Below, one piece after another: positions 31,504-56,360 of a stretch of DNA of 64,000 nucleotides. The stretch comes from Neelides folsomi (taxonomy: Eukaryota; Arthropoda; Collembola; Neelipleona; Neelidae). The position numbers and the translations under genes were made by a program. The stretch is taken from the NCBI GenBank assembly GCA_034687125.1, contig JAQGBZ010000024.1, positions 186,001 through 250,000 on the forward strand. Reading direction: 5' to 3'. Positions within the stretch are counted from its first letter, which is position 1. Each line of letters begins with the position of its first letter. The notes under the pieces were generated by a model. That model ran no database searches, was not told the DNA's origin, and saw only the letters and a list, made by a program, of their open reading frames with translations.

Positions 31504-34500
31504 ATGGGTGAGATGATGGATGAAAGGACAGTTGGGAGATTTCGTTGGAGAAGACATTTAAGTTCATTTTTCTTGGCCTTTGTGTGTCTTTTCCCTTATG
31601 CCTCCTCTCATGTTGGCCTCACGTTTCCTCCAGCAAGAATGTTTGACCTCGACTTTCTCGACAATGTGAGAACAAAACCTCCGTGTGGGATGCCAAGAGG
31701 TGAGGCTTTGATTTACAATTTACATTTATTTCCATTTTTTCCATCAGAAGGGATGTCTTTTGGATATTTTAATTTGGCTCTGTGAATTGTCTTCCAATGT
31801 TTGTTATTTTTCTCTCGAATTTTGATATTGTAAGTTGAGAGTCTTGAGAGTAATAAGTAATAAGTAATAATAGACCTACGATATAATACTGATGTTATTT
31901 ACACCTTTTGTATAGTCACCTTATTTATGACTACTGTACTTACAATACATATTATTGTATTAGGAATTGAGAGTAAATTATGTTTTGTTCGCTCAATTGA
32001 ATAGATTAAGGAAGGATAAAAGAAATGTTTCCCACATTGAAATGCCCAAATGTCACTGTGTCATTGTCATGTTCTTATTCACATGTTATTCCTTGATTTT
32101 CACTCCGTGTGTGAGCGAGCCGCATAAGGTCTTGTGCGGTTTGTAATTTCATATTTTTCTTTTCATCAGTCATCATATATGAATGGTTGACCCTCAACTG
32201 AACCCTGCCTTCGGTTCCATGTTAATCACACAAACTCCAAACCCAGTTCTCTCGGATCAACACCATCATGGGTCAAACAAAGGGTCAAAGAACAGATGCT
32301 CAGTGTAAAACATTAGATTTTCCCCAGCGCCGTGCAATGTGTGCGGTGCGAGTTTATTAGGGAGGTTTCTCCACGTCGCCCATCCACATCCACAATATGA
32401 CCTTTTAAGTCCATCCAGTCGAACGAGAAGACAATGGTCGGTAGTGGCTCCCATTCAGAGTCGAGTTTTCTAGCTCGTATTTAAGAAGGGAAAAAAACTG
32501 ATTCTCGCTCTTCTCCAACAAGACTTGCTTTTCCTCCTCCTTCTTCTTCTGCTTCAACTCTCCTCGCTTGCATAACGGAGGATTTTATATGATTTTTTCA
32601 TTCCTCACCACCAACCAGCAGATATTCATTTCATACAGAGAGAAATGAATTAAAGGCACATTCTTTAAAACGAGTCTTCAGCTTCCTCAGCGTTCATTTT
32701 CATCATAAGAATCCGAAAATTATTTAGCAAATGTATGGCATTATTAAATGTCTATCCGACTCTTCGTTGTCCTTTGGAAGGATAGGGACGTGAATCATTT
32801 ACAAGTGAAGGCATTTGAATTCTCAACGGTCCTACCTGTGATTCATTATCCGCATACCACCTGTTCAATAATAATGTTTTTAATAAGCCGTTTTTTAAGC
32901 TGTTTTTAATAATGAGGATATATAAATCCTACATGGCATTTGAATTGTGCAAATATTTTTTTTAAAGTGCAATTATTTTATTGTTGGCAAGAAATGCGAT
33001 GAAAGGATCGTTTAACAATGCGATAAATACCTGTAGTTTAACCTTTCATTTTTATTGTACCATCATCTTTGAACGAAATGGATCCGCTTAAGGAAGAAAG
33101 GAATGTTAAATCAAGATATAAAAATTGGAATCAATCAAAATAATGGGATTATTGTTGCCATTTGAAGTTTTTTATTTGTCATAAACCATTAGGCATCAAG
33201 GAGAATGGTTTAAAAGCGATATCAAATCATTTGTTCCTCTTGATAATAAAGAGACTAAGCGTCATTTGAGTGATAGTTAAATGAGACTTGGCGATAGCTC
33301 TCAAATCTCAAAGGATCTCCATACAAATATCCTTATATACCTACTTACTCCTATTGTAATATGTATTTGTATGTATGAGTGTGAGTTTCAAATGTCTTAC
33401 AGATTTCCTTTGCGTGGTTCCCCACCTGAAATATTATGGTTCGACTCAAGGTAAAGGAATCAAAGTGACAAAGCGTATGAATGAGATAATGGCCCGTTCT
33501 CAGCAAAATACCTACCCTTAAAATTATTTATTTTATGCTGGCTTATCTTTACCTTAAATTTCTACTTAAAAACAACCTAAAAGTTACAAGCTATAGTAAA
33601 AGATGTATGGATTAGGTATACTATAAACTGATGCAAGTTGTCTAACTATAAATATAAGTAATTCATAACTACTACAATACTTATTATGTATTAGACGTAC
33701 TTGTCCATTTTATGACCATCAATGACGTGAATGTGGTTTAAAATGTAAAATAAAATTACAATATAAATTATTTTATGTATCTAAACTTGGTATAATACCG
33801 ACTTTGACAGGCTGCGAACATTAAGATTGGCAAGTCAATTAACAACAATGGTTTATTTTACGAATTTTATGCTTTTCCACCTCTAATTCCGCATCGATGG
33901 GCATTTGGGCCAAAATGATTTACTTAATTTACTTTTGGTTTAGGCTCAACACGATTTTGACGTGTGGATGTGTGGTGTGCATGATGAACTGATGTGTGTA
34001 TTTTTACTCAATGTAATGTTTGTATGAGATTTTTAAGATTTAAAAATGAGTCTTGTCATTTGGAATACATTTGTAATGTTTAACTAAACCCAACTAAACC
34101 TAAATTTATCTATTTGTCTGGCGAGCGGCTTTTGTGTCAATAATACATTAAATATAGTTATAGGTTATAGGAACATTCATATGATTCTAACTTTAAATCT
34201 CAGAGGCATATTCAAGCTTAAAACCTCTCCCTTGGTATTTGATGACCTTCGGAACCTTCCACTTACTGTTCGCAACTTCGCTCCACCAAGCCCTTTTTCC
34301 ATTTTTCATGTTAAAGTGGATTTCTTATTAGATATTTTCAACAAGGAGCACACAAAGGAGATTATTTGCTTTTCTTAAGCAAATGACTCGGCTTGTTTTT
34401 GCTCCTTCTGAGGAGAAGGAAGGTGAGCAAAGGAAGTGACGATTTCTTCATTTCAACCTCTTTGAACCAAAACTCTCATTACAAGCTTGGAAAATACAGA

Positions 34501-37500
34501 ATGTATAACAAAAATACGAACGAAACAACACATGCGATTTTGCTAAAATGGTCCGTGTAATGAATATTAAATACAAAAGATTTTGACTCGTGCAGCCCTT
34601 TGTTTTACAGACTCACTTTCCGGAAATACACATGTGAAAGGGAAAGAATAATAAAGGTGTAATTTGGGGATAATTGAGCCAAAGGTCGCTGTAATAAAAA
34701 AAAAGGCCCTTGGGGATTTTCAAATTTAATTCACTAATCATACAAGCTCATTTCTGCAGCGTTTATTTTTCCATTAAGTCATGCAGGAGGCTCTTTACCA
34801 AAATCCATTATTATTTAACAAAATTAAATTCTTTTGCCCTCGAACGAAACAATGAAATATCGGCGATACTCTCAAGTTCTTAAGGTTAAGAAAGAACGTA
34901 GCACGCGTAAAAAAAGTTCAGATACGGAAGGTGATTTTATGTAAAAAGTGTAAAAACTTGCGGAATCTTTTATTCTGCGAGTTGAAAGTAAAGTAAAGTT
35001 GAGGACATGATGTAAAAATGGTTTTATTATACAGTTGACTTTAAATCAGCAATATGCGGTACATGCTCTATATTTCACCAATTCTTTCTTGGTATATTGA
35101 AATTAAATAAATGTCTAACAATAAGGAAGATCTGACAAAAATTACCATAAAGAATAAAATATAAGTAAAGTTCAATGTTGGGGATTTTTACGCGTCTTTT
35201 TATTTCCACTCTTGGAAATGCGAAGGATTCTTTAGATTTTGATTTATGACGGCATTTTTATGTTTACTACTTCTTTGAGTACTTGACTGTTTTCGATTTC
35301 CTTCTTGAGCCCTTCAATAAGTCTCACTTAAATATAAAAGAATCCTTTCTCTAATATTTTTCATCAATACAATATTTTAAGACATACATAGGTTTGTGTA
35401 ATAAATATACCATATACAGGTATAAGAATTGTACGAGCAGTCCTCATATTACCTATACATTGAAAAATGAGACTAGCTAGATAGACTTAATATACAAAAC
35501 TACATTTAGTTTGTATATTAACACATATAATGTATGTACTGATAGTACGTATGTAACTAGACACATAAAAGTGATTGGAATTTGGAGTAATCCTTTTAAC
35601 TCCGTCTGACTACCTGTCTGCCCTTCACAATTTTTTTTATCTGAATGAGAAAAGGCTTCTCTTGAAGCATAAAGAATGGTGATGTGAAAAGAATTGGAAG
35701 TTGATGAGATCCAAATTCGGTTCCGACGTTGTTCAAAGACGTTTGCGGCAATTTCCACGACTCGCTCACTTGGGGCTACTTCTCATCCTCTCTCATCATA
35801 GAAATACAAAAGGGCTTTTACCTCAGTCTTTATTACATTTCACATTGAGCAATTTTCTTTTCAAATGGATTATTATGTTAAAACTGTGGACACTTTCTGC
35901 ATCCAATGTCTTTTAAATACCAAAATGGTACCTGTAATGTTGATTTGAGGTTTATTTTAGATATTTAACCAAAGCTCATGTGAAATTAATGTGTAAAACC
36001 GCCTTTAATAACCAATTTCTTCAACTTTTTAAAGAATTTCATTTAGCGCATTTGATGTTGATCAATGGATGATTTTCAGTTTCAGGCTTTTAAACATAAA
36101 TAAGGAAATTCATATTTGCTCAACTTAAACTGCAAAAGTGCAGGGAGTATTTGCAATTATTAATGAGGCTTCACGCGTTCCAATTGAAGACCGATAGAGT
36201 AAACAGAGGGAATGGGAAAGAGAGATTTTGGGACCAAAAGTGAAATAAATCGACTGAAAGTTTTTTGAGTGAAGAAATGTTCTGAATGAAGGCGCAAGGA
36301 AGAAGCTGAAGATTATCAAAGACATTTATAACTTTTATATAAATATAAAAGGACTCATTCGTTCCATCCTGTCATTTTTATATATCAATCGAGGTTGGTT
36401 CCTAAGTTGGAAATCATCCACACACTTCTTCAATTCCGTCTATGAGAAAATGAAAGTGTTTCATATTTCAAGCTGTTTGACTCCATTAAATGCCATATCA
36501 CTTTTCTGTATCAATCCAAACTCTTTTCCACTCCTTTTAATATCATGAGCAAATAGAGTTTATAGAAGATTAAGCTACCAATTTCCCATCATTCTGAAAG
36601 GTCTTTCTAATCCTCAAACACAAGATTCGGCTTGTTTGCTTTATGTTTCATTCATTTCTCTTTTGTAAAAGGGAACATATTTTTTGTCTTCTGTTTTATT
36701 AAAAAATTTGACGAGTAAAATGGCTGGGATTTAAAACATTATACTTTCTATTTATTCCCCTGTCATTTTTATTCTCATTGATTGTCAATAGTAGTAATAG
36801 TAGTAATACTATACGAGTACTTTGTCCTGGCTCAGAAAAGGCAAAAAGGGAAATTGCGGTTCTTCCTGCTATTTGAGCCATTGTGGCTTTAACATTCTGT
36901 TTCAATTCAACTTATAAGAATACAAATATTCTATTTATCTAGTTTATACACTTATCACTGGATTTATAAATGAAGAAGACATTGCAAAATAATTTGGGGC
37001 TTCGGAAAGAGAAATTACAAAAAGCTCTTTTTTACAAAAATGCAATGTTTTGGGATGAATTGAAATTCATTGTTTTAGGCTAAACAATTGGATTTCTTTC
37101 ATATTAATAATTAACACATTTATTATTTGCTTAATTCAATAGTCAAATAACATCAAAAGTGTATACAAGTAAGTAAAATAGTAATATGTAAGAGGTCCGA
37201 GAGGCTGAAACTCTTTGTTATTTGTGGACAGGATATTTATCATTTCAATAAATGTCCATTCATTTATTTAATCCTTGAAACGAGTTCTTTGAAGTAAAGA
37301 AAGTTCTTTGTGTACAAGAAAATGCATTTTTGACTTTTCTGGTAAAATTCAACATGTGTAATTTGTCATGTCAAACCCGTTGAAATATTTGATAAATTGT
37401 TGTGCCAAATATAAAGTACACGCTCATTTGCTCCTTTGATATATCCTACCCACAAAAATGTAAGTGTGTTTGTGAAAGAAAGTATTACATTTTTATATTT

Positions 37501-40500
37501 TAGGAATAGCTATGTCCCTTACATTCACATATATAAATAGTAATTACAAGTCGGTATACCTATAGACTTTTCTTAAATAATAACCAAAATAAATGCTTAC
37601 CTATAATAAATTCTACAATAAAATTCAAAAAATATTTCACCACGAATGATATCGGCACACTTGGGCATTTATTGATTTCAGACATGGTCGAATATTAGTT
37701 CATTTTTGTATGTTTTGGCACTAATATACTAATAATTGACATTTGCTTTTGTCCATTATAATTGAAGTAGATACACTTACTTTCATTATAGGAATAAATT
37801 ATTAGTGTAGGTTTGGTTTACTTTCTGAATAATGAACAAATAAAAGACCCGGGAGCATAAAGCCCACATGCATCCCCCACTTTTGACAAAATTGGGCTTC
37901 CCTTACGTGTCTTCTTAAAAGGGGTCACAGAAAATGGGCCAATCTAATATGCTATTTAATAATGGTCATTTCGTATTCTCATTGACTGTCGGAGATTGCC
38001 TAAAACGACAAATCTTGGTATAAATAACTTGACAATTACGCGTAAACGCCCCTCTCCTTTCGTTATTAACTAAAAGTAAGGACAATTACATTATGAATTT
38101 TGAAATATTGTTTACTTGAAGTACTTACTAATGTGAATAAACGCCTTTAAATAACGACTAAGAGAAAACAATTTTTACCATTAAATCTACCATACGTGTA
38201 TTTATTCCGTTTGTTTAGGTTTGTTTAGCTTCATATTTATAAACTAAAAATATTTACCATTTACTATACAAAATATTCGTTCTGTATATTCATCCTGAAC
38301 AAATAATTTCATGTATTACACTTTACCTTGATGATTCTAAAATGTAGAACAAATTCCGCTTTATATAAGCTTTTATGACATACTCGTACGACATACCCAA
38401 TACTCATAACCATAACTCATATGTATGCCAAATAATGCTTTAACGATTTGTGTTTTGATTTTTGGTAGTAATTTTCATATACCCAGGATAAGCGGGAAAA
38501 TATAAAATTTTGAGTAGTTGTTAGAAAATTGTATCGAAATTAATTAATTCTCACCTTCTCTTTTCTTAATATGACGTGGATGTGGAAATTGTGTCAATCT
38601 GCAATTAAGGATTTCACATTTCATATGCAGATGTTAGCAATTTAGAGTAATTATTACATATTGAAATTTCCCTTTGAGCCATTATTAAGAAGACTTTTAA
38701 TAATGATTATTTTCTTTTGCAGGGTCGATAAAGACGAGTATCCTTTCTGGCTCAACATTCAACGTAACGTGGCATTTATCATATCCTCATCGGGTAAGTG
38801 TCTTTTGAATCTCACTCGTATATTAAACTCTTAACTTAATCGTATAATTGGAATAGTCAAGCACATGAACAAGTCTCATAGTTTATCTCAAGTACTTGTC
38901 CTATGCATAAATAGCAATAAAAACGGCTAAGAATGGGAGTAACCTCATAATCCAAAAGGATTATTATATTTTTCTATCTCACGACCACGATGGAAGAAGT
39001 CGAGCCGAGGAAGGTTGAGAAAATGAAGAGATTTTCCATAAGAATGAAAGATATGAGGAGAACATGTCGGCGGTTGAAGCTCATTTTGGTCTCTCAGGTT
39101 GTAAATATAAAAGAATGAAAGAGAAAGAATGGAAACCAGAACGAAATTCATAGGAATAAAAGTCAAGGTGGAACGGGAATCGAATGGCCCAATTCTGAAC
39201 TCCAAGTGCCGTTGATATCAAATTTCATGTAAACACGCCATTAGAACCCACTTGAAAGAATAAGGACCCGCATTGCTCTACACATACACACACACGCTTA
39301 AACTATTTATTAGAGAGCTCTCAACCCCAGACCCTTCAATTGTTCATAAATAGAAATATGAAATTCGGGCATATTCCCATGTGTAAGTATTAGTTATTAT
39401 CCAACTATGTGCCAAAATTGAAATAAGCAGATGGTTGACAACTCTTGGTCTAATTTGCTATTTTATTTACTCACCTCTATGCTATTTTTTTTATTAAATA
39501 TGTAGTAGTGAGATATACAGTATTATTTATTTGTATGAGCATATTGGCAAAAATTTTATTATGCTAGCTTTTTTATTCTTTTGTTCAATGTTCGATTTAC
39601 TATCGTTTTTGAAACAGTTGCAAATTATTGAACGAGCTTCTCTGATACAATTCGCGTGTCAGTATTATAAATGAGGAGTTGTACTTCCCCCTACTTTTTA
39701 TCGTTCTTTAAGTCAGTTAGGTTAAGCTAACTCATTTTTCATTCCTTTTTTCAGCCCTTCCTGCTGTTTTATTTTATACAGAAGTGAAGTACACTATAAA
39801 AAAAGTCTTGAGAGCATTAAAGCTATTTGAGCTAATATAGTACTATCTTACGTAGGTAGGCACACGTTCTTGAATGATTGTTCCCAATGAATTTGGGAAC
39901 ATCAATATCACGAAAGAGATGACATGATAACGAAAGGATTATATTTATGAAATAAGGAGAATTGTACAATTTATATTATCATCATTATTGTACCCAATTT
40001 CTTGTACCAATAAGTAGTATATTAAAAATTCATGGTCTTGTAGTTAGTAATAATGCATACTTTAATAAAGTTCTTAATTAGATTAAAGTGTGGAAGAATA
40101 TGAATTTCTGTGTGATACATGAGTGAATGAAATTGGAATCGATGATGAACATTGAATGATTTTGTAGGGCGGCTATCGGCTCGAGATGATGGATAACAAA
40201 GAAAGACAACTCCTCGATCTGACACCAAAAACCGGTGATGAAGAATTCATCAAAGGAGACCCAACGTAAGAAATTACCTCAATTCCCATATGAATTATCT
40301 CATAATTGATTAATTCCTCATTTGAGCAAGTTGATGTGTGGGTCTTTAATGAGAGTGTAAATTATTCAATGGTCGATGGCTTTTTTTGGGTTGATGACCT
40401 CATTTTATCATCATTTATGAGGAATGTTATCTCATTTGTTTGATTCACTTTGAATTCTCACAATGAAACACAGCGAGGAGAATTGAAAGACGGTTTGGTA

Positions 40501-43500
40501 TATGAAGAACAAAAATTTTCTTTGAACCACATGTATAGCTGTACTTGAGAAACCTATGTTAGAGAGAAACGTAACATGAATTTGTAGAAATTTGGATCCT
40601 GAAAGAGGAAGTACATTTATCTGTACCTTACAATTTTTATATTAAATCTGTGAGCATAACTAATCTCAAATTTTCATCAAAAAACTGATATTTAACTGTC
40701 ATTATTTACTTTATTATAATTGAATTTTAGTTTAAACCCGTATTGCAAAACTAGTATAAATAAAGGAAATGTTAATATTATAGTTATTCAACCAATTTAA
40801 AACTTCTCCTGAATAATAAACAATATTTTATAACTAAAAGAAAAGAAAGAATAAAATTATAAAGCTTTTAAAGTGCAATTCTTTCAAGTGTTTATTGAAA
40901 ATTGAATTGTGAATTCTCAGAATTTATCGAATATTAATTTAGTATTCTTTAAGAAAGTTCAACCCCAATGATTAATTTTTTTCTAATTCATCTTTATATA
41001 TTTTCTCGTCAAAATCTAGAGATAAATACATACCAAACTACATATCGTATTGTACTTTATATGCAGTTAAATTCAATGAGCAAAAACTTTTACATTAAAT
41101 ACTGATTATACCGATGGATATATTTTTGTTTTTTACTCAAATTATTCCACTTTCATCAATTAGTAATGGGAAACTCATGAAAATATCTTAATAAAAATAT
41201 AAACCTCTTTATTTCTTTTCCTTAATAAAAAGTTTCTTCCAATTCGTTATGACTTATGACTGTTAAACATTTAATTGATTAGGACAATAAGGAATAACTT
41301 CAAGAAGGGAAAATTGTTTCATCGGTTATGCAATGCATTTATTAAATTGTATAATAATAAATGTAAGATTTCACTTTAATTACATAGTTTACTCATACAA
41401 AAATATGTTTATTAAATACTCCTGCTAAATGATTCGAAGAAGAAAATAAATTTATTGAGTTAGCTTTCCGATAGCTCCGATACTGTTACAGCAAACATTA
41501 TAAACTCATGCAAATATAATTACACTATTAATAAAAAGCTTAATCCTAAGCAAGAAAGTAAAACCAATGTTAAACCATTCTAAGCTCAATTTATGAGAGT
41601 AAAAATCCAAAAAATATACCACTTTATAATATTTGTATTTAATTTAAGAAGTGATCGGCAAATCCAAGCCGCTATAAATTAACTGTGCGGAAATGTCATT
41701 GTTGCTTATCATTGAATCATTAATCTTAGTTTGAGAGAAGCGCATTAAGAATTGAGTTCTTATTAAAGACTGTTGAATCAGTTTAGGCTCGCTAAATAAC
41801 AATCCCACCCAACCAAAAGTAATTTCCTCGCCTGTTTCACAAGAACCTTCCACGCAACAGAACTCCATTTATATTTTCACTAGGCGATTATCCCGGCCTA
41901 CACGTTCCCCTAATTCCCTTCAGTATTAAATATACAAACCAAGGTACAGGATAAATACTAGACATAGGTCTATGGCGATCTCACCCTTGTCAAATTCCTG
42001 ACAATGTGCATAATTCAACCGTTTTAAATTCCATATACGAAAACTAACAATATGCAATTTGGTCATTTTCGCACAAATCTGTTTTAATTTCAAAATTATT
42101 ACAGGGCTTCATGGAATAATCATCTACACAACCTTAAAATTTGTAGTGACATGTGTGCATTAGGATTGTTCGTGGTCAATTATATATGGATTTTTTTCAA
42201 ATTATAAATGCACTTTGTTTCTTAATAATCCTTAATGATGGTGAATGAATATCAATGAGATTTGATGAGCAGTTTTAACAACTTATTTAATTTTACTCTT
42301 GACTTGAAGCTTGACTTTAGTCATGAATGATTGCACGTAGTTAAATTGGGAGTGGGCATTATTAAGTAATGGAAGTTAAAACAATTTATTTTCATTTCTT
42401 TCAAGTAAAAAAATCGTCCCCTCTATTATAAAAAGGAGTTTACAATTACTTTGTATACCCAACATCTATCCTGCCCGGGAGTGCCCTGTAGCATCGAAAA
42501 CAATAGCATCGAATACTAAAGCATCTAAACATTTCCATCTAAAACTAAAGGATCTAAAGACATAAGGATCGACATACAAAAGCATCTAAGCTACGAAGCA
42601 TAATAGGGTCGATTGGTTAAAGGATCGAAACAATGTAATTATTGGAAATAGTAAGCCCCTATTCCGGGTATTCAATGAACACAATAAAACTATACTCTAA
42701 AATAACGATTTAAGCACATTAAATTAAAATATAATTAATATATAATATTTCTAAAAAGTCGACGAGTTTATTTATTAAATTTCAACATGTAACTATTGAA
42801 TTAATTAAAATCAATCAAAAGATGGGGAAATGGAAATTTTATTAAAAAATTGGCGATGTTTATTAAATTGTTAAATGTAGCCAATGATTTTATTTAAACG
42901 GGATTCTCTTTTAAATTTCCAAATATGGCTCGAATTTGGTTAAAACACCGAATAGATTTATATATTTTTTACATATATTCCACTCACTAATAACAAGTGA
43001 TCCGTATGTGACGGGATGATTTGGGTAATTGCGATACCATTACTCAATGGATTATTGATAGAGGGTCAAAGGTTTTTTATATGATTTAATGATAACCGTA
43101 GTTGATAGGCTCATTGGTAAAATATTATAATGGGAAAGTCATACCACGGCTGTAGTGGGGATACTGATTACTAATGATCATCGTCAAAGGCAAGAAACCC
43201 ACCATTGACGGGTAAACTGACTGAACAATTAATAAGATCAAATTTGGATAAGACGCCAAAGAGAATTATAACTTTTGCACATTTATTACACTCTTCGAAA
43301 TGTTATTAATAATCGGCGTAATCGGTTTTGGATAACAAAGGTATTGGGACACCCTCCAATGATGATCAGGCGGGTGATCTGACTGAAAAATTAATGCGAT
43401 CGACAACCATGAGGTTTAGTAGGAGTAAAAACATGATAGAAGTGGATTCTTGGGCCGTTTTATCGTTTAGGGCAACTCCAATTCCAATCGGATAATTCTT

Positions 43501-46500
43501 TAGTCGGATATTCCAATAGTAATCTATCTGATAGATGGGTTACAGATATTGAAATACCCACGATTACGGGTGACTCAATGGTATCTTGAAATCCAAGCAT
43601 TGAGTGACCCGTAGGTTACGGGTGATCGGCTCGTTGACATTAAAAATACACGTTTAACAACTGACAAATCTAATTTTTCGCCGATTAGTCGGCAGTTATT
43701 ATTTGAATTTATGGATATTTTATTTTGGTATAAAGAATTTTTATTCCATTGTCTTCATAGACTCTGTATTGATATTTGTGTGGTGATTGTTGAAGACTGA
43801 AGAGGATTAAAGGAGTGTTAAAGAAATCTCCAAACTCATGGTTGCATTTATTTCATACATTTTCTAATGGTCTACAAAAAGGGAGGACACGACGTTGTTT
43901 TGAAATGATATCTCTTTGACCTGAAACTTAATTTCCACCTCATTTCGTCATCCCATTTCAATTTTCTATTGTTGTCTCTCTCTTCCCATAATTACTTCGT
44001 CCATTAGTTTGCCCTATAACTATGTGTAGGTAGACAATATAGTACAAGTATAGGTGCTCACTTTGTACTTATACTGCATATTGTATCTCTCATATGCATA
44101 CGTCCAACTTCATTCATCGACCTCATTCACAGAGATTTTAAAGGGTGTGAGTGTGAGGCTCCCTGCGAATCAAATTCAGATTGAATTAATTATTACAATG
44201 TACAACCTCTATCAACTAAAGTCAATAGAGGAAAGTTCATAAAATATACATATATTATAATTACAGATTGATAGAAGAATGGCGATGTTCATCATAGATT
44301 AGTTATAGCGGCTCTTTACTTCATACATATATGGATATACTCAGGTATAAAATGAAAGTGTATGAGTATATTACTTGTATGGGCTATCATCGGCAATCAA
44401 TGTTCATTGATATACATTTTCATTGTACTAAAAGTGGTTTATATTTATTAATGAATGAAGAGTAGATTTCAATTATCTGGACATGGAAAGTGAAATCAAT
44501 CATTGTTACAAATTAAATTTTTTATGTTCAATCCTTACATCTTGATTATTTTGTATATATTATGAATTTGCAGACAAATGACATATAATTGACACTTGTT
44601 TAAAATTATTTTGTAAGTATTTGTTCTTCCTTCTCATCCTGATTCTATTAAACTACATAAATGAATTATAACATAGAGGTACATTTACCAAACCCTTAAT
44701 AGTAAGATGATCGATGATTTTCATCACGTAAAATAATTTTGATGTGGTTTTTTATCTTTATGTATTTTATCTTAATGATTTGTAAACAAAATATTGTAAA
44801 TAAATAGGAAATCAGTGATTAGTGGTTTTGCTTTTACTTATTTGCCCTCAATTTATGATAATTAAAGCCAAAAGTTTGCATGTTAAGTAAACCAAATGAA
44901 TTAAAGAAATATACTCTGTAATGACATAAAAAATAATAGTTATCTTAAAGTAACGGATACATACATCATTCGTTCCTTAGTTCAATTGAAGAAGCATCTT
45001 ACAGTAAAACAATAAACAATAGTACGCGTAATTTTAGTTTTACTTTCATATTCTGCTGAGGTCTACGATACATGTACGCAATTAAAATGATTATTTTGTT
45101 GATTTAACTATTCCATTCACTTTACCATTCTGTTTTGTCTCAAAACAATATAAAGCATGAAGCTTAATGATACACTAAACTAAATAAGAATTACGTAGTA
45201 AAGTTAACCATTTTATAGATCAACAACAAATTAACCATCATTAGCTATAAGCCTTATAGATATAAGACTACAATACAGTATTTTATACTATAGTTTGGTG
45301 CATAACTAAGTATTATATAAGAGTTTGTTATGTAAAATATTTAGCGTATTAAAGGTAATATAAACATTCCAACTTTCACTTTTGCTTCTTTAACGGTCTT
45401 TTCATAAATAATGGAAAATATGGTATAATGGGAAATGCTTATTTGCATCTCAAGTAAAAATCTAAATACTAATTGGATAATCATAAGTAAAGATTAATTA
45501 AAAAGACAATTAAGGATTCAAACAATGGTAATGAGCTGCGAACTACAAAATATCTTTATTAAATGGTTCAAAGGAATGGTCAATTTTATTTTGCATAAAT
45601 ATTTTATGACCAATTTTATTACCAGCAGAATTACAACATTATGTTTTCTAATTCTTAATGTGATTGCATAAGTTAATTATGTAGTTATATTACTTTCCGT
45701 TTAAAATATTTTGTCGGTAATGTTTAATATTTATATAATATCATGTTACATAATTAAGTAAATGTGAAGCCCTAGTTATTATACTAAAAATGATTAAAAG
45801 ATAGGGAGCGTGGATAAGTTAAAATACCCATAATTGAGCCTTATTAAGTAATAGCTTGATTATAAACAAAATAAAAATGTAAAACAAAATCGAGTACAAA
45901 TATACATTATAAAACTCGGAGCGTAAATATTATTAGACCTTTAGATAAAGATGATGAATGTGAGTTAGAGTGAGACCTTAAACTCCTTTTCTTTGTTTTC
46001 CTCAAGATGTGAGATGATTAGAGGAGATTGGGTTTGAATTTGGATCAAAAGGCTGAGAGTTTCTGGGTAATCTCACCCACATATCGAAAACCTCAAGAAA
46101 CCATCCAAATTGTACGAAAAGTGTAGAACCAAATAGACGCTGAGATGTTCCATGCTTCAATTTCGTGCGATTAAGGCTAAACCCACTAATTAGAATTAAC
46201 AGTATCAAAGCATAATTTTGTGCCACTCTACATGTGCTCTCACAAACAGCAACTCGGGCAGGATAAAAGAAAACTCGTTGAATCCAATGTGGCACAGAAT
46301 TCCTTTGTTCGGGGTGTCACCTTTCCCTTAAGAATTATCAATGGCCAAATCCCTCGTAAACCTCATTGAAGATCTGGATCTTATTTTGTTTCCTTTTTAT
46401 TATTTTGGATTGAGAGTTCTCTCCAACTGGTTTTTGCCAATTTATAACATTTCAATTCGTAGCTTTTATAAAGAATCCGAAGAGTTCATTTATATATTAT

Positions 46501-48388
46501 TTTAAAATTATAGTTTATAATTATAAGTTTCATTTGGTTCAGATATGCTGTATCTTTTCTTTTGATATTCCTTTGTTATACGTATTCAAGTATTTTATTT
46601 AATTTTAATTGAGGAATCATTTAACTTAATTTATTGTAAATTGAGTTTGATTTGATATTTATGGATTTGAACTACGAACTTTAAAAAAGTTTGTAAAGAT
46701 GAAAATCGGTTCCAATCTTTGTATGAAAGGCAAACGGAACTAATATGAATCTTTAACTTTATCTAATGGTCCTTTCGAGGAGGTTCAAAGAGAGATTGAG
46801 AAGCCCTTTCCCCCATTTTCCAAGGCTAATTTACCATTCAAGTGGAGTCCCGTTCGAATTGATATTATTTACTACGTACACCACTTACTTCCTTCAGCCA
46901 CACGGACCTTCATTCAGTATTAAAGATATACAAGGTGGATACTTCATCTACGATCTAACTATATCACATTGATATTAGATATTACTAGACCTAGAACGGA
47001 GCTGTGCAATTTTCATCTCCTTGTCCCCACTCGACATTTGAGACTCGAGAGTCTTTATAATATTGAGAGCCAAAATTGTTTTCTTTACTGTACTTTTGCG
47101 ATTACGGACCCTCGGAGAGTTATATGTCAAGAATAAGATTTTTTACACTCGTTTTCAAGACATTGGCCTCGTGAATCGATCCAATAAAGAATGCACAGCT
47201 TTACTCGCCAAAACGGCCACATAATCAACTTACCTCAACTTTACTTTTTTTTCTTATTAACGCCACTCCTTATATGCCATTATGTTTTTTCTTTGAATTC
47301 ACGTAAGAGGGTAAAGAGTGGAACAGAGACATCCAAATGATTTCAATCTCGCTGATTCTTCTTGATAAAATTTTACAACCTTTTAATTAAAGTCTAATAG
47401 GCAAGTTGTTAAACTTGAATTTATTAGAGTCGTTTAAATAAGAAAAAAAGGGTGAGTTGGAAAAAAGTTAATTGTGCTCAGCTGATAGAACGTGTTGTTT
47501 CATCTCCTTGATCAATGTTTTGATAGTCATTTGATGCGAGATTTGAGTTAGGGAATAAATCGAAATAATTTTAATTATGGGCTTTTCATACAGTATCCTT
47601 CTTCTGTTATGATGATGATGTTTTAATTACACATTTAAAACTCATACAAGCATGTAAAAATCGTGATGGCCTTATCGGATTTCCAAAATATAATTAAAAA
47701 TAGATAATGTATGCCTAGACTTAAAAGTAAGTTGAGATATGATTAGATAAATAACCTAATGAGAAAAAAGTAATCGTGAATAGGAGAATGAGGAAAATGA
47801 GAAAAATTAATCTTAAATCTATTTCGCTCTCCCTTCCTCAAATAGCTTTATTAATAGATCTGATTTGGATCTTTTCAATGAAAGTGTGAGGAAACAAAGA
47901 CAACTTTCAAATTGCATATCATATATTCTTTGTATTTTTAAACATCAAAATCAATTTGTTGCGATATTTTCCAAGTACAGATATTTACAAATACAATATT
48001 TACCCTTTTTGCATTATCTGGCTCTATCTGATTCCGGATTATGTGTAATGCATTTTTATATTTCTGAGAATGAGAATTTAACGTTAGTTAAGAGCAGTTT
48101 AATAAATTACACATCAATCTCTCCGCAAATCACGATCATTTTTAAAGCCATTAACCAAATATTTTTTTATTGTCATTAGAATATGTGTGACTTGTTTTGT
48201 ATGTTTTTACAACAGGAGTAATTTATTTGTGTGTTTTTTACAGTGCTCAATCACACTTAGTGAAACTCCCGAGTGGTTTCACATGTGAGAACTGCACTAT
48301 CCGCCTCCTGAGACAAGCGTCCGAATGGGCCAACAACTACAGATTCTGGTCTTGTGCCGACGTTGACGTTATTGAGAATAAGAATTAC
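31504..48388 (+). CDS. DOMON-gene exons 1-4: signal peptide and putative histidine-brace (BIM1/X325-like) domain
   Basis: The hydrophobic core SSFFLAFVCLFPYASS ends with A-S-S, so cleavage would leave His36 as residue 1 (HVGLTFPPARMFDLDF). The rest includes PPCGMPRG (Cys61), VTWHLSYPHRGGY (His83, His88), FTCENCTIRL (Cys136, Cys139) and FWSCADVDVI (Cys159, Asp161). Fungal BIM1/X325 proteins, an LPMO-like copper family, start with H-x-x-L-x-(Y/F)-P-P-x-R. They carry a CGG-type motif, a second His about 50 residues on, and a CAD motif whose Asp is a copper ligand. All four landmarks occur here in order. Copper binding is inferred; other short beta-sandwich domains starting with His remain possible. 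Confidence 0.55.
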
Positions 48389-51300
48389 AAGGAGAATTGT
48401 ATGGGCAAAGGAAGATCTATTGCCGGTCGGTGTATTTGCAACAAAGGTAATTTCTTGTTACATCAAAGATCATTTCATTGTTTAATACTCAATGGTCAAA
48501 GCAATGCTTTCAATTCCCTTCCTTGAAGATGAATAAAACAAGATAAAAATTATAAAAATAAGAATGGGTGAAATAAGGAAGTACTAAATAGTATAGATAT
48601 TGCTGTATTGGGGATTTATGTTGGAATTTAATCGTGAAGGTTTTTAATAGGTTTCTCCGGTTCTCGATGTCAATATGAGGACGAGTGCGATTCGGAAGAT
48701 GAATGTAATAAGAATGGCAAATGCATTAACTTGGGTGGAACGGCCCTTCCGAGGAAGCAATGCTTTTGCAAACCAGGATTCCACGGTGTTAAGTGCAACA
48801 AGAGAAACGCTGTCAAAATGCCTGATAGCTCCTCAACCCTCGATCTCTCACGCCATAATAAACATGTTTTGTCGGAAAAAATGACGTTGTACTACCGGAT
48901 CATTCCAGCCTCTAAAGAGGAAAATAAAGAAATCGAGTTTGTGCTTATCACTGATGGAACGTCTTATTCCGCTATCGGCTGGAGGCCCCTCAACTTTGAC
49001 AAAACCTGCAAACGGTGGCCTCACATTGCAAATTCAACTTCAACTCCAGATAGACAAGGGAAAAGAATTGATGGAACTTACACATCAGCTTCGAAATTGT
49101 GAGCATAAAAAATATTTATTTTTAATGTATAACACAAATAGGATATTATAGATAGACAATTTCAATCTTAAAACTGATATTTGAATAAAATATTTATTAT
49201 TTTGCAAAAATAAAAAATGTCCGAATTACTCTTTTGCTAATTTTATTTATTTTGTCATGAAGGGTTCCAAAGGCAGAACCTGAGCCTGAAACTGAACCGG
49301 AGCCAGAAGGCACACCTGAACCGGCATCTGCAGAACCTGAGGCCGAATCGGAACCAACGGGAACATCAGAGAAGAAGTATGAAAAAAAGAACAAGTATCA
49401 CTCTAAGCATCATGAAGACGATGACCATCATGCTCATGCTGAGCCAGAGCCAGATGCTGAGCCTGAAAGCGAACCCGAATCCGAACCTGCCCCTTCAACA
49501 ACCACAGAGCGACACACCATTAAGCAAAAGACGAGATATGGGGAATTTAGTAGGCCAAAACCTAAAAGATTAGCGTCAGTGGAGCTTCCTGAAGGTACGG
49601 AAGTAAATGTTCAAACTTCTTCAATCGTCGTCACCAGAACCACTGGAGCGAGCAAAAGGATTAAACGTGCTGCAGACCACGAGCACGGACACCATGATCA
49701 TCATGATGGGGAAGATGATCATCATGATGACGCGAAGGCAGAACCAGGTGCGTTACAATAAACATACTTTATTTAACACTCCTTGTATGCAAATATGAAC
49801 CTTACATATCACTACTTATGAATCTAACACTGTAAGAGTGTACCATAGAATAAGTATTTAAATTACAAGTAGGAATATTTATTTATTTTACAGTAAATTG
49901 TATGATATTGATAATACAAAGAATCAAAGCTAATTGCTAAAGATTAAATATAACGTTTTTATATTGACCAAAATGAATTTGCAGAACCTGAAAGTGAACC
50001 TGAACCCGAATCAGGTGCAGGTGTAACTTACCGTTACAACAACGACGAGCCCAAATCTGAACCCGAAAGTGAACCCGGAGCTAGCGAGATTTCAACTAAA
50101 GTTAATGTGGTTAAACTACCACCTTCAGAAGTAAAAAACAATTTTTATAATTTTTTACTTCATTTAACAATTTATATGTAAATTATATAATCAGTTAATC
50201 AGAATTTTAATACTATTTATTATTATATTCAAGTGGGCACCGAAGGGCGATTTCCATGCTATGGATTGCATTGATTTGATCATGGGCGGAGCTCGAGATA
50301 ATCTTTTCAGAATTCGTGATTATTACACTCGAGATCGATCAACTCCGAGACTCGATTCATTTTGGGGTGGAACTGAAGACATCACTTCGGCTGCTGGTTG
50401 GGAACGAGATGGGAAAACCACTTTGATTTTCCGAAGAAAGGTTGTAACCACCGACGGACCCGATCACCCCATTGAGAATGAAGAAATGCACGTCATTTGG
50501 GCACGAGGACAAGAACCGAAGGGATACATCCATAAGCCCAAATCAGGTCTTGAAAGGGAAACTCCGTCCGTTCCACAATTCTACGCCCAAGATGAAATTA
50601 AATATCATGGGCATGAGAGCCAAAGAGGAATTACAAGAATTAATTTCTTAACTCAACCAAGTAAGATTAATTACCATTTAACCTTTCAAGTTTTAATTGG
50701 GATAATTAATTAATTTTAATTAATCAGCATGAGTTTAACGCATGGATTGAATTACTAATTCAACTTTTCTTGTTCCTAGACCAAAAACGAGATGAAAAAA
50801 CTGACGAGAAGAATTGTGAAGCTGGTTGGTCTCATCCACCAGGTTGTTCCAACGAGGGGAAGGAAAAACCCTGTACTTATTCGGCTACTTGGCGCTATTA
50901 CCCGGATATTGACTCTGTCAAGTTTTCAATTGAAACCAGGAATCCAGAACAATGGACAGGAATTGGATTTAGCAATTCTCCCAACATGAGGAATACCGAT
51001 GCAATCCTTGGATGGGTTACGGCTGCTGGACAATATTTCCTTATGGATGTTTACATGACTTCTTATGCTGCACCAGCTTTAGATAAATTCCAAGTAAGAA
51101 AAACACTAATTCCTATTTTAAAGAATTGTTAATAAAATGTTAATTTAACTACAATTAATGTATAAATTTAATAAATTAACATTAATTAATTTTTTAAATT
51201 TGTTTTTTATAGGACATTTCCAATATGACTGGAAAGTATGAAGATGGCGTAGTGAAGATTAGCTTTCTCCGTAAAGTATTTACCGGTGATAATGACAAAG

Positions 51301-53502
51301 ACGTTTCTTTGGATGAGTGTCGTTATTTCCTTTTCCCCACAAAGGGTGGAACGTACAATCACGTGAACAAGAAAATTGGGAAACACGATCAAGCTCCTTT
51401 TGCTTCACCACAAAAGATCTGTATTTCAAGGACCTGCCGACCCGCTCCTGAGCCAAAGAAACCTCCAGAGTTGAGATATCAATTTGACATTAAGCTTCTA
51501 AGCATCGGAGCAAATTGGCAAGCTCCAAAGTACGGCTCCACAGATTTCAATCAGTTGAGCAACAGGCTCGAAAATGACTTTTCCCCTGAACTCAAAAAGA
51601 TTCCTGGATACAGTCGACTTTCACTTGCTGAGATCAAAAAGTAAGCCAATGTTAAATACTTTTTATATCTAAAACTTAATCAAATATGTGAATTTGTCAT
51701 TCTTTATATAAAAATCAATACAAGCTAAATATCATATATTAGGTTATGTAACATTTTGATTTTAGTATGTAGAGTCTTTTGATCAAATCATGAAGGATTT
51801 TGTGATTAAAATCATAATTTTGTTTCAATTTAGGGACGGAGAATCAGCTTTAGCCAAATTAGACCTCATGGTTGAACCCAGGTCTGAAGCTTCTGACCAA
51901 AATCGAGTTGAGCGAGCTTTAAAAGAAACGATCAAAACGGGGAAAGTCGGTGCTTTAAAATTGGACCCAAGTTACCTTGAGTTGAGTTCCCCGTCCCTTG
52001 TGAGCCATGATGATGGAGAAGACAATCAACTTCTCACCTCGGCCTTTGGAGGTCAAAGGCTCTGGATCGTTTTAGGATGCGTGGCAGCACTGATCGTCTT
52101 GGCCCTCCTCCAGGCAGTATTCACTATCTTGAAAACCTCAGGGAGACCTCCGTCTCAAAAGGTATGGAAAATCCGCCCAATAATTTTGCATAATTAACCC
52201 ATCTAACAACCCTCATATCTATTTTATTCATATAGTCAAAATACTTGTAACACGTTCAATTTCTTCAAAACATTACAAAATATATAAATATGTAAATTGA
52301 GTTCCATATAATGATTTATACGACGATTTATATAATATTTACCCCGTATTTTTTAATACAAGTTAAGGAAGGTTTACTACAAATGTCTAATTTCAAATCT
52401 TTGTTGGGTTGAAGGTCGTTCCAAACTGGAATGGAGCTATCTAAAAGTCCCCTACTCTTTCTTCTCCTATTCTTTCAAGTAGATAACAAAAGGGAATAAA
52501 CACATTACATCTCAGGTTGACTTTGACTCTCTTTATATGTATAGTAAACTGCACACCTATTAAATAGTATTAAACCTCAATCCAACGAACATGTTTTCTC
52601 GTTGGATAAATACACAAACACATCTTTGTTGACCTTCAAAGCCTTTTCTCACTCAATACTCAAATGATTAGCCTATCGAGCCAATAAATCCACGCAAAAA
52701 TTTTTTCACCTTCTGTCTCACTTTTCCTTTTTTTTCTCATCATGATCACTCGTTTATTTAATGTTGAATATATGCTGCCAATGAATATGTTATCCATTAT
52801 TGTATACTCGTTTCTGTCCACATGTCACCACTTCAAGGAATGCAATTTACACGTTAATGCACTTTGAGAGTGAAAGTGTATTAAGGAATTTATGATATGA
52901 ACAAATGCATGTTTTGGACATTTGCAAATTGCTTTATGACAATCATTGCATTTTTGATTACATTCATATAAACCAATTTTTCTTATCATGTCATAATAAT
53001 AAAAAAGCTTTAAATTTGCAATCGCCACTTCAATTTGGAGCAGAATATTAAATTGTATTTTTTCTCTCAGGGTTCTCCATCAAGTGGGTCAGGGATGGCA
53101 TGGCGAGATTATTCGGAAACGAATTACGGGTATGATGCCTACGATGAAAAACATCCAAATGCCATGCCGTTGACGACGAATCCAAATCACCACGGCGGCC
53201 ATCACCATCCTCAACATCTTCAAAATAATAGTCATCCGAGCGGGAGCAGCCATCAACCTCATCACAATGGACACTCGATGTCTACAAATTACAGCAGCAG
53301 CAAGAGTCAGGCGGTAAATCCGCCCGCTTATGTTTCCCTCCCTCGCCCTCAGTCCCAACCTCCCCGCCATCATGAGAATGGCGGGAGCCAATCGAGTTCC
53401 CGCGGACAGCAGAGCCATAATTCCGATTTCTATTTTATGCCTTCACAGAGGAAGTATTCCGGAGAAGTGGTTCGAGTCTACGTCGACCATAATAAACGAT
53501 GA
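31504..53502 (+). CDS. Type I membrane protein: BIM1/X325-like domain, EGF, two DOMON, SEA, TM, PPxY tail (1191 aa)
   Basis: Twelve coding exons: 31504-31699, 38723-38793, 40168-40265, 48244-48446, 48651-49098, 49263-49747, 49985-50130, 50234-50660, 50780-51093, 51213-51640, 51834-52161, 53071-53502. All join in phase. Order: signal peptide (1-35); putative copper domain (36-165); two EGF-like units (about 174-240); DOMON 1 (about 260-690, split by an acidic linker at 340-549); DOMON 2 (about 707-866); SEA-like domain (about 885-990); transmembrane helix 1015-1038; cytoplasmic tail to 1191 with PPAY at 1132-1135. DOMON domains bind heme or sugars in other proteins; no enzyme module such as a copper type II monooxygenase or b561 follows here. 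It is probably a cell-surface or shed extracellular protein with a redox, matrix or metal role, which is inference. The start is the first ATG directly before the signal peptide. The architecture resembles an arthropod protein family I remember only as uncharacterised. Confidence 0.85.
31700..38722 (+). other. DOMON-gene intron 1 (7 kb)
   Basis: AT-rich intron. It contains a pyrimidine-rich stretch at about 32500-32575 and a triplicated TAATAAG run at about 31853-31870. No nested gene was recognised; open frames at 32266-32454, 34181-34378 and 35477-35758 look like chance. Confidence 0.5.
39879..39901. repeat. Perfect short palindrome in DOMON-gene intron 2
   Basis: TGTTCCCAA, a 5-nt loop, then TTGGGAACA. 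Nine perfect base pairs. No associated element was recognised. Confidence 0.5.
42489..42635 (+). repeat. Degenerate tandem repeat, unit about AAAGSATCKAA plus spacer
   Basis: About nine imperfect repeats of AGCATCGAA / AGCATCTAA / AGGATCTAA / AGGATCGAC / GGGTCGATT, spaced roughly 13-19 nt apart and sometimes wider. The spacing is irregular and the spacers are A-rich. There is no coding potential. Confidence 0.6.
43000..43640. repeat. Diverged dispersed repeat region
   Basis: Related phrases recur: GACGGGTAAACTGACTGAAC (43208-43227), GGCGGGTGATCTGACTGAA (about 43370), TACGGGTGACTCAATGG and TACGGGTGATCGGCTC (43564-43632), with ACTCAATGG also near 43043. Composition is less AT-rich than the flanks. 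This looks like an old, decayed repeat or tandem array of a longer unit; I cannot define exact borders. Confidence 0.4.
48401..48776 (+). CDS. DOMON-gene exons 4-5: EGF-like repeats
   Basis: Two adjacent Cys-rich units. The first is NCMGKGRSIAGRCICNKG continuing to FSGSRCQYEDEC. The second has C-x5-C-x5-C-x12-C-x1-C-x8-C spacing, ending GFHGVKCNK. The exon junction falls inside the first unit in phase 1. EGF-like units usually act in extracellular adhesion or spacing. Confidence 0.75.
48828..50660 (+). CDS. DOMON-gene exons 5-8: DOMON 1, split by an acidic/His-rich linker
   Basis: First half: MTLYYRIIPAS, EIEFVLITDGTSYSAIGWRP (residues about 267-302). Second half: FHAMDCIDLIMGGARDNL, YYTRDRSTPRLDSFWGG, AAGWERDGKTTLIFRRK (about 555-630). 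Exons 6 and 7 (49263-49747, 49985-50130) insert about 210 residues between the halves. These are Glu-Pro-type acidic repeats, a furin-like RIKR site at 471-474, and a His/Asp cluster just after it (residues 478-495). Both linker exons could be removed only together to keep phase, since they start in phase 2 and end in phase 0. Confidence 0.75.
50780..51640 (+). CDS. DOMON-gene exons 9-10: DOMON 2 and start of SEA-like domain
   Basis: DOMON 2 shows the standard pattern: YSATWRYYPDIDSVKFSIE, WTGIGFSNSPNMRNTDAIL, GWVTAAGQYFLMDVYM, then DISNMTGKYEDGVVKISFLR. Flanking cysteines (CEAGW, CTYSATW, CRYFLF, CISRTC) probably pair. A proline-rich spacer (RPAPEPKKPPE) follows. A SEA-like fold begins with YQFDIKLLSIGANW and is completed in exon 11. 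No GSVVV-type autocleavage site is visible. Confidence 0.75.
53071..53502 (+). CDS. DOMON-gene last exon: cytoplasmic tail
   Basis: 144-residue His-, Ser-, Asn- and Pro-rich tail with HHGGHHHPQH, NPPAYVSLPRP (a PPxY motif of the type bound by WW-domain proteins such as Nedd4-like ligases) and a more ordered end, KYSGEVVRVYVDHNKR, before the stop. It joins exon 11 in phase 0 just after the transmembrane helix. Confidence 0.8.
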   Translation, partial: GSPSSGSGMAWRDYSETNYGYDAYDEKHPNAMPLTTNPNHHGGHHHPQHLQNNSHPSGSSHQPHHNGHSMSTNYSSSKSQAVNPPAYVSLPRPQSQPPRHHENGGSQSSSRGQQSHNSDFYFMPSQRKYSGEVVRVYVDHNKR

Positions 53503-55083: not shown

Positions 55084-56360
55084 TCATAATTTGTTGATAA
55101 CTTGAGCTACTCTGTCGACCGCTGGTTCGTCAATGAAAGATCGATGGTTTCCTTCAACTCCAAAGATTTCAACTTTTTGTTTACACACCTGAAATTCAAT
55201 TAATCAGCCCATTTATCACCATTCTCCAAACAAATATTAATCGTTTAATAAAAAAACCATTAATGCTAATGATTGAGATTAAATTAATAGTGGAAATTGT
55301 ACCTGTGATAAACTGTAATCTTCTCCTAATGAATGACATGATCTATTGTCAAGGGCTTTGATGAGAATGGCTCTTCCGTGGAATTGGTGAGTTGGGTTGT
55401 AAATGTCAACGGCAAGAAGTTTCCTATAAAATGAGAGAGCTGCGTCTTCAATGTCTTCTAAATTGACAGAGGTGAGGACAGGGGCGAGGAGTTGAGCAGT
55501 TTTCGCTACTTTCCCTTCAATGGTGGGAATCTTCATAAGCTCAGCTCGGACCTGGTTAAATTAAATTATATTTATTTAAAAAATAAGGATTAAATATGAA
55601 ATTGATAGATTCATTTTCGCTCACAAGCCATTAATTGTACTTTTGTAATGATCTAACTTTAAGTAAGATTAGCAATTTAATATAAAAATTTACTTTAAGA
55701 TATTCAAAAGAAAGGAACTGCATGAGGAACGTGCACATGGCGTCACAGAAGTTCTCATCCGTTGTGTCATTTCCTTCGTTCCTCTTCTGTCTCTTGTATT
55801 CCTCTGTTTGAGCACTCACGTATTTATGAGATCCATCAAGGAAGATCAGATTCTTTACCTGTTAAATTAATTATCATCAGTGAAACCATTATTCATTAAA
55901 ATGCCAAGATTCACTTGTTCATTAAAATTATTAAATTACTTGATTTTTAGATTCTTTCTCCAATTGGATGGCAATTTCAAGAGCAATTGTGCATCCATAC
56001 GAGTAACCAGCAATGTTAAATGGTCCATTTGGTCTAACTGTCTTAATATGCTAAAAAGGAAATAAAAAAGTAATAATTAATAACTTAAAATGCTTAAACA
56101 TTTGTATTTCTCAACCAGAGAGCTAATTTATTATAATTAGTTATTATAAGAATTAAATATTTATTTACCTGGATGTAATATGCCGCAAGAGATTCCACAC
56201 TCTCCAAATCAGCTTCCCGGATACATTGGAGTCCATAAACAGTATAATCTAATTTCTTTGCGAGTTTCTCCAATGAAAGCGTAACACCTTCAATTGGATG
56301 AACGACAAAGATCGGGTCTCGGGTGGATTTCTTTGGTTCGTTCAATTTGACCAGACATTG
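55084..56360 (-). CDS. FASN: FASN thioesterase (TE) domain, last exons
   Basis: Releases the finished acyl chain, usually palmitate. [19 protein letters not shown] opens the fold. The nucleophile Ser is in [17 protein letters not shown] (exon 56050-55940). The catalytic His is in [14 protein letters not shown] in the last exon, just before the stop TGA at 55086-55084. Confidence 0.93.

Follow-up and report, generated by a model that had tools for sequence, protein, structure and literature searches.

What is the domain that opens an arthropod surface protein whose mature chain begins with a histidine, and what might it do there? The question is raised by a gene in a 64,000-nucleotide stretch of the springtail Neelides folsomi genome (contig JAQGBZ010000024.1, positions 186,001 to 250,000; hereinafter the window), in which an initial annotation had recognized, between 31504 and 48388, an N-terminal copper domain of the histidine-brace type and had assigned it to the fungal X325/BIM1 family. 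The rebuilt gene is predicted to encode a type I membrane protein with this copper-type domain of about 125 residues as its outermost module. Our comparisons indicate that the domain very probably belongs to the histidine-brace proteins of the lytic polysaccharide monooxygenase (LPMO) superfamily, and its closest match within the libraries searched is the bacterial LPMO-like family SCE4755.

The N-terminal domain among histidine-brace families

The mature domain was compared with three family models. The NCBIfam model SCE4755 (NF043005) returned 38.3 bits (E 1.3e-9; cut-off 75), the Pfam model LPMO_10 24.3 bits (cut-off 23) and the Pfam BIM1-like model (PF20238) 19.8 bits (E 0.0012; cut-off 27); none of eight shuffled copies of the domain matched LPMO_10 or BIM1, and none of four matched SCE4755. 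The X325 protein LaX325 gave no match to SCE4755. PF03067, the LPMO_10/AA15 model, matches the domain from profile position 83 on only, and the window protein does not contain a full-length AA15 catalytic domain. Two paralogues in the same genome (C12 and C449; 75.1 Mb in 840 contigs searched) also match SCE4755 under its cut-off, with E 8e-11 (42.1 bits) for C449 and E 8e-6 (26 bits) for C12. Against the BIM1-like model C12 is not significant (13.6 bits, E 0.095) and C449 reaches 26.8 bits (E 8e-6), or 29.3 bits, over the cut-off, with its corrected sequence and neighbouring residues. A search of the genome with NF043005 recovered only these three family loci, none over the cut-off (E 0.002 to 0.9); an exon-by-exon search with PF20238 gave no match, though its control matched nowhere either.

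The same genome carries an AA15-type gene (C102:21124-22085), which matches PF03067 from position 2 (51.3 bits) and SCE4755 at E 1e-7, and in which a Tyr apparently stands in place of the N-terminal His (GYGRLLDPPGR; model by eye). Three more LPMO_10 matches over the cut-off lie at C284:79241-79462 and C195:38175-42713, where inspection by eye of the strand read showed no clear LPMO exon. The cuticle family Chitin_bind_4 has 39 matches in the genome at E 0.001 or less, which mark it as that of an arthropod.

Relatives of the domain were gathered from bacteria. A bait search yielded 30 loci, labelled mostly Myxococcota or deltaproteobacteria, and a profile of the animal sequences was applied to 282 genomes from the Sorangium phylum (the scope of the whole-genome search), 21 of which gave a match with E no higher than 0.01; in that profile the C449 row had a surplus Ser where two exons meet, and the hhalign figures below come from the corrected row. 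Twenty loci were taken from the profile search, 19 of them with a readable domain (L080 being the one without); L081 and L085 among the 19 proved to be of the SCE4755 type, hence 17 rows outside that type and 32 within it, two of the bacterial rows (L041 and L085) being identical. A leader precedes the N-terminal His in the 49 bacterial sequences. Several of the bacterial LPMO-like proteins end in a hydrophobic stretch with an Arg-rich tip, resembling a surface anchor.

Profile-profile comparison by hhalign aligned the animal domains with the 17 rows at 98.8% (E 6e-17) and with the 32 SCE4755-type rows at 98.0% (E 2.4e-13), both being one-template E-values; the best column-shuffle controls (20 per comparison, 40 in total) reached E 0.035 and 0.0018, respectively. 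A joint profile of the three animal rows and nine of the 17 bacterial rows, searched against solved structures at a threshold of E 1, matched 5msz (AA15; E 3.3e-8), 4oy7 (AA10; 2.2e-5) and 4opb (AA13; 0.005); four weaker entries followed (E 0.12 to 0.84), ending with a carbonic anhydrase. A tree gathers the animal rows into a single group (100/99), whose branch is long (3.5) and whose neighbour is L067 (95/82). Elsewhere, a plasmid search with exon 1 and its read-through gave no match, a second plasmid search gave nine records with weak partial matches (E up to 10), and patterns from the three animal sequences matched 42 and 66 stretches in viral contigs and bacterial genomes, among which no relative was confirmed. 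Fungal or bacterial contamination was rejected because the gene has 12 exons, encodes EGF and DOMON modules, has two paralogues and belongs to an arthropod genome.

The proposal that an arthropod protein opens with a histidine-brace domain of the LPMO type is supported by the SCE4755 and AA15 profile matches. The domain's assignment to X325/BIM1 does not hold on the landmarks that were used: motifs of the CGG and CAD kind are found in this genome's AA15-type gene as well, the window domain falls short of the PF20238 cut-off, and the Asp of CAD is a poor landmark, being present in only 8 of 30 SCE4755-type bacterial rows.

Gene model and candidate copper site

Manual splicing at in-phase GT-AG introns, from DNA alone, predicts a gene of 12 exons on the + strand (31504-53502) that encodes 1191 residues. 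All of the landmarks reported earlier lie on this strand (HVGLTF at 31609, CGMP at 31684, TWHLSYPH in the exon at 38723-38793, CADV at 48353), and the residue numbers given for them (His36, His83/His88, Asp161) are correct in the rebuilt model. The span first proposed, 31504..48388, encloses the landmarks but is only the first part of the gene, 48388 lying near the end of the N-terminal domain alone; one more exon, at 40168-40265 (GGYRLEMMDNKERQLLDLTP..), lies among those that carry the landmarks. From the N-terminus the modules are a signal peptide, the domain (His36 to about Cys174), two EGF modules, DOMON1, DOMON2, an SEA-like module, a membrane span and a tail:

31504..31699, + strand: exon 1, signal peptide (residues 1-35), mature His36 (31609-31611) and PPCGMP (sequence and gene model)
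38723..38793, + strand: exon 2, sequon N79-V-T, His83 and His88 (38788-38790, proposed second copper ligand) (model and alignment)
40168..40265, + strand: exon 3, GGYRLEMMDNKERQLLDLTPKTGDEEFIKGDP, mid-domain, absent from the initial annotation (gene model)
48244..48446, + strand: exon 4, LPSGFTCENCTIRL, Phe156 (48344-48346, proposed axial residue), CADV with Asp161 (48359-48361) and the start of the first EGF (model and alignments)
48398..48796, + strand: two EGF-like modules, residues about 174-238, with an intron within (Pfam EGF_2, two stretches)
48651..49098, + strand: exon 5, remainder of the first EGF, second EGF and first part of DOMON1 (model and Pfam)
49263..50130, + strand: exons 6-7, Glu/Pro-rich insert within DOMON1 (gene model)
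50234..50660, + strand: exon 8, second part of DOMON1 with FHAMDC and KYHGHESQRG (model and Pfam)
50872..51323, + strand: DOMON2, residues 723-833 (Pfam stretch), exons 9-10, one intron inside (Pfam)
51477..51966, + strand: SEA-like module, residues 885-983, one intron inside, under the Pfam cut-off (Pfam)
52054..52122, + strand: transmembrane span, residues about 1013-1035 (hydropathy)
53071..53502, + strand: exon 12, tail with PPAY (PPxY) at residues 1132-1135, and stop codon (gene model)

In a Pfam scan of the full-length protein, DOMON (PF03351) scored 148.4 bits in two stretches (cut-off 32.7) and EGF_2 25.4 bits (cut-off 22.1), which, together with the span seen in the hydropathy profile, upholds the fusion to EGF, DOMON and a membrane anchor; of the SEA module claimed alongside them a match is present, yet at 19.3 bits it is under the cut-off of 26.4. 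DOMON1 is interrupted by a long Glu/Pro-rich insert, missing at the same place in C12, which reads straight through. Within the insert (49657-49728) a furin-like RIKR (residues 471-474, by eye) is followed by a His/Asp-rich run, HEHGHHDHHDGEDDHH (477-494), a segment with a possible metal-binding or processing role. The PPAY of the cytoplasmic tail (53320-53331) is a possible WW-domain ligand. Beyond the gene, long reading frames on the minus strand (56094-63713) resemble an animal fatty acid synthase by eye.

The three paralogues are 50-58% identical in the domain. C12 encodes it entirely in one exon (50% identical to the window domain), and C449 has its introns at the positions seen in the window gene (by eye). 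Both carry EGFs and DOMON1; DOMON2, SEA and the anchor were not found by tblastn (E 0.01) in the C12 and C449 stretches read. On the minus strand of C449, about 0.35 kb past the DOMON1 frame, lies a mariner-like transposase fragment (by eye). The fly proteins olf186-M and nahoda were guessed to be orthologues; the literature was of no help and the guess was set aside.

Signal peptides are cleaved after small residues at positions -3 and -1. The residues ahead of His36 (..ASS) are compatible with this rule, as are those in 52 of the 52 sequences compared, the window's included, and His36 is likely the start of the mature chain. The site was then read from an alignment of 53 rows: three animal, 49 bacterial (19 + 30) and LaX325. 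His36, Cys61, His88, Cys136, Cys139 and Cys159 occur in 3/3 animal and 49/49 bacterial rows; His36, Pro42, Cys61, Gly62 and Cys159 occur in all 53, and His88, Pro60, Pro131, Cys136 and Cys139 in every row but LaX325, which is badly aligned there (its own second His did not guide the alignment, and its residue in the His88 column is therefore uninformative). An N-x-T sequon ahead of the second His is likewise invariant in the three paralogues.

In the joint-profile match to TdAA15A (5msz), the His88 and Phe156 columns pair with His91 and Tyr184, respectively a copper ligand and the axial residue according to the structural report (PMC5823890). The axial column is Phe in all three animals, Tyr in all 49 bacteria and Leu in LaX325. 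Across the paralogues His36, His88 and Asp161 are invariant, whereas His83 is replaced by Asn in C12; His88 is the better second ligand because of that replacement, and His83, in whose column the bacteria have mixed residues, was rejected. Asp161 of the CAD motif was also rejected as a ligand, since it is not kept in the kin (Asp in 18/19 and 8/30 bacterial rows, besides 3/3 animals) and is present in AA15.

The X325 brace has an additional Asp ligand in the excerpts consulted (PMC7467343; PMC10952591), placed on a Gly-rich loop in a Bim1 model built on LaX325, as far as the consulted part of that paper goes (PMC7529816). Our best candidate for it in LaX325 (6ibh) is Asp122 in GGDG, six residues before the last Cys; Asp38 and Asp77 likewise lie near glycines. 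The counterpart of this loop in the window protein, RQASEWANNYRFWS, has neither Asp nor Gly; of the paralogues, C449 has no Asp there, and C12 has an SDG displaced by one position. An acidic copper ligand may come from elsewhere in the window protein. Taken together, the homology, the two histidines and the aromatic axial position lend support to the earlier suggestion of copper binding, with a predicted site that is probably LPMO-like rather than X325-like, a judgement that overlaps with the functional alternatives below and is not to be added to theirs.

Proposed function and competing explanations

From the computed homology, two histidines, aromatic position and architecture, we infer copper, haem, catalysis and substrate as follows. 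Removal of the signal peptide would free His36, whose amino group and side chain, along with the side chain of His88, would hold one copper ion. Phe156 would occupy the axial place, which is Tyr or Phe in LPMOs, and the equatorial place filled by Asp in X325 would probably be open, because of which O2 or H2O2 could react at the copper, as happens in LPMOs. The EGF modules would present the copper domain, DOMON1 may bind haem b and hand electrons to the copper, and the likely target would be a cell-surface glycan or matrix polymer.

The two DOMONs are candidate binders of haem or sugar, and DOMON1 keeps FHxMDC and KYHG in all three paralogues. A Met and a His of this kind bind haem b, and, going by motif, DOMON1 may do the same. 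In fungal cellobiose dehydrogenase a cytochrome DOMON gives electrons to LPMOs; by analogy DOMON1 might supply them to the copper domain, a role that we regard as doubtful. That the domain is catalytic at all we hold tentatively. The reading in its entirety, namely a membrane-anchored LPMO-type copper oxidase with its own haem donor (DOMON) in one animal chain, distinct in lineage from AA15, akin by descent to surface proteins of myxobacteria, and acting on a cell-surface glycan, is offered as a speculation that may well fail in one or another of its parts. Another distant LPMO relative, the fungal Egh16-like TrsA, with a proposed brace and a Phe, is reported to have oxidised fluorescein (PMC12377627). 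If true, the reading would add a second, membrane-held animal lineage with a possible built-in electron source and bring copper oxidation to cell surfaces; it would also offer a direct test of whether animal histidine-brace proteins go beyond digesting or remodelling chitin.

Several results weigh against this proposal. The isolated domain scores under the curated cut-offs of both BIM1-like (19.8 against 27) and SCE4755 (38.3 against 75). The match to 5msz begins past profile position 28, such that the N-terminal His is aligned to no solved chain, and at E 1 LaX325 is not among the structures matched by the joint profile, nor does any solved structure match either DOMON. In hhalign, LaX325 aligns with the 17 bacterial rows over 33 N-terminal columns (53.7%, E 1.3e-4), a hint that suggests kinship with X325; its values against the animals (0.7%, 11 columns) and the SCE4755-type rows (0.5%) are low. 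The joining of the animal rows to L067 may be a branch-length artefact; the bootstrap was unsettled. The animal comparison comprises three sequences of one genome that are paralogues rather than orthologues.

Among the alternatives, a BIM1-like carrier, which would bind extracellular copper and pass it to a transporter with no oxidation chemistry, survives best, though we consider it rather unlikely. From the first His on, each of the three paralogues can be aligned to most of the length of the BIM1-like Pfam model, and C449 passes the cut-off; X325 members tested had no polysaccharide-degrading activity in the part of the report consulted (PMC7924993), and the window protein contains His-rich runs. 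Yet the window loop before CAD has no Asp, the axial aromatic is retained as in LPMOs, the BIM1-like model also matches bacterial kin with an axial Tyr, and the insert of C449 shows no such His-rich run by eye. Global alignments of LaX325 with the three animal domains beat 299, 299 and 300 of 300 shuffles (z 3.7, 2.7 and 3.8); this direct alignment was set aside as poor in its middle, with only 11 columns in hhalign.

It is less probable still that a former copper domain has been kept as a binding or adhesion module for glycan or protein, with metal at most structural. The apparent loss of the N-terminal His in the AA15-type gene at C102 indicates that such a loss may happen here too, and EGF and DOMON modules are often adhesive. 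A coral DOMON membrane protein has been discussed in adhesion terms (PMC3204972). Nevertheless, both histidines are invariant even though the paralogues have diverged to 50-58% identity. Finally, a chance resemblance, by an extracellular domain of unrelated origin that happens to begin with His, could account for the weak scores against single Pfam models and for the absence of both LPMO_10 and BIM1 from the Pfam scan of the full-length window protein, but is highly improbable given the shuffle-controlled profile-profile match of E 6e-17, the match of the joint profile to solved LPMOs and the failure of all eight shuffled copies.

Comparison with known systems

AA15 is the animal LPMO family treated in the consulted parts of a review and of insect papers (PMC10952591, PMC5823890, PMC9156745); in that 2023 review, X325/Bim1 is entered under fungi and AA15 under animals (PMC10952591), and a 2022 insect paper, using an AA15 query, groups AA15 proteins, as far as its excerpt shows (PMC9156745). 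The LPMO tree of Voshol et al. 2019 has an early branch combining DOMON/EGF with LPMO_10 beside Egh16-like proteins (PMC6950343); it shares these domain names with the window protein, and the part of its text consulted holds no description of sequence, organism, copper site or membrane anchor. Beyond it, the literature matches listed (titles and abstract starts, with subscription journals mostly outside) contain no account of this protein, which does not imply that none exists, and SCE4755 is not named in the papers listed when it was searched for. Other arthropods presumably have similar proteins under the label of uncharacterised DOMON proteins.

With X325/BIM1 (PF20238; LaX325, 6ibh) the window domain shares its size, His1, CG and CADV in place. 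In contrast, the Asp of the X325 Gly-rich loop has no counterpart in the window, and LaX325 has an axial Leu and no C..C pair; the X325/BIM1 members are fungal and anchored by glycosylphosphatidylinositol in the literature consulted in part, whereas the window protein is from an arthropod and predicted to be membrane-spanning. AA15 (TdAA15A, 5msz; PF03067) shares the second-His column, the C..C strand, the CADI end and the aromatic axial column, but differs in that its solved chain has 201 residues and that the window matches PF03067 only from position 83.

The bacterial kin appear to link these groups, because both Pfam models recognise them: four of five proteins scanned from among L034-L063 and L066-L085 match BIM1-like and LPMO_10 both at E 0.01, with two of the five over the BIM1 cut-off and three over that of LPMO_10. 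By connecting X325/BIM1-like with LPMO_10-like sequences they bear on the origins of both. SCE4755 (NF043005, mostly from myxobacteria) and its sister group (mostly ending YYxCAD) share with the window domain the leader and His1, PCG, a second His (mostly in HPGHYR), LP..C..C and an aromatic residue three before the last Cys; they differ from it in their short tail, in the lack of EGF or DOMON by eye in the frames read, and in an axial residue that is Tyr in the bacteria and Phe in the animal.

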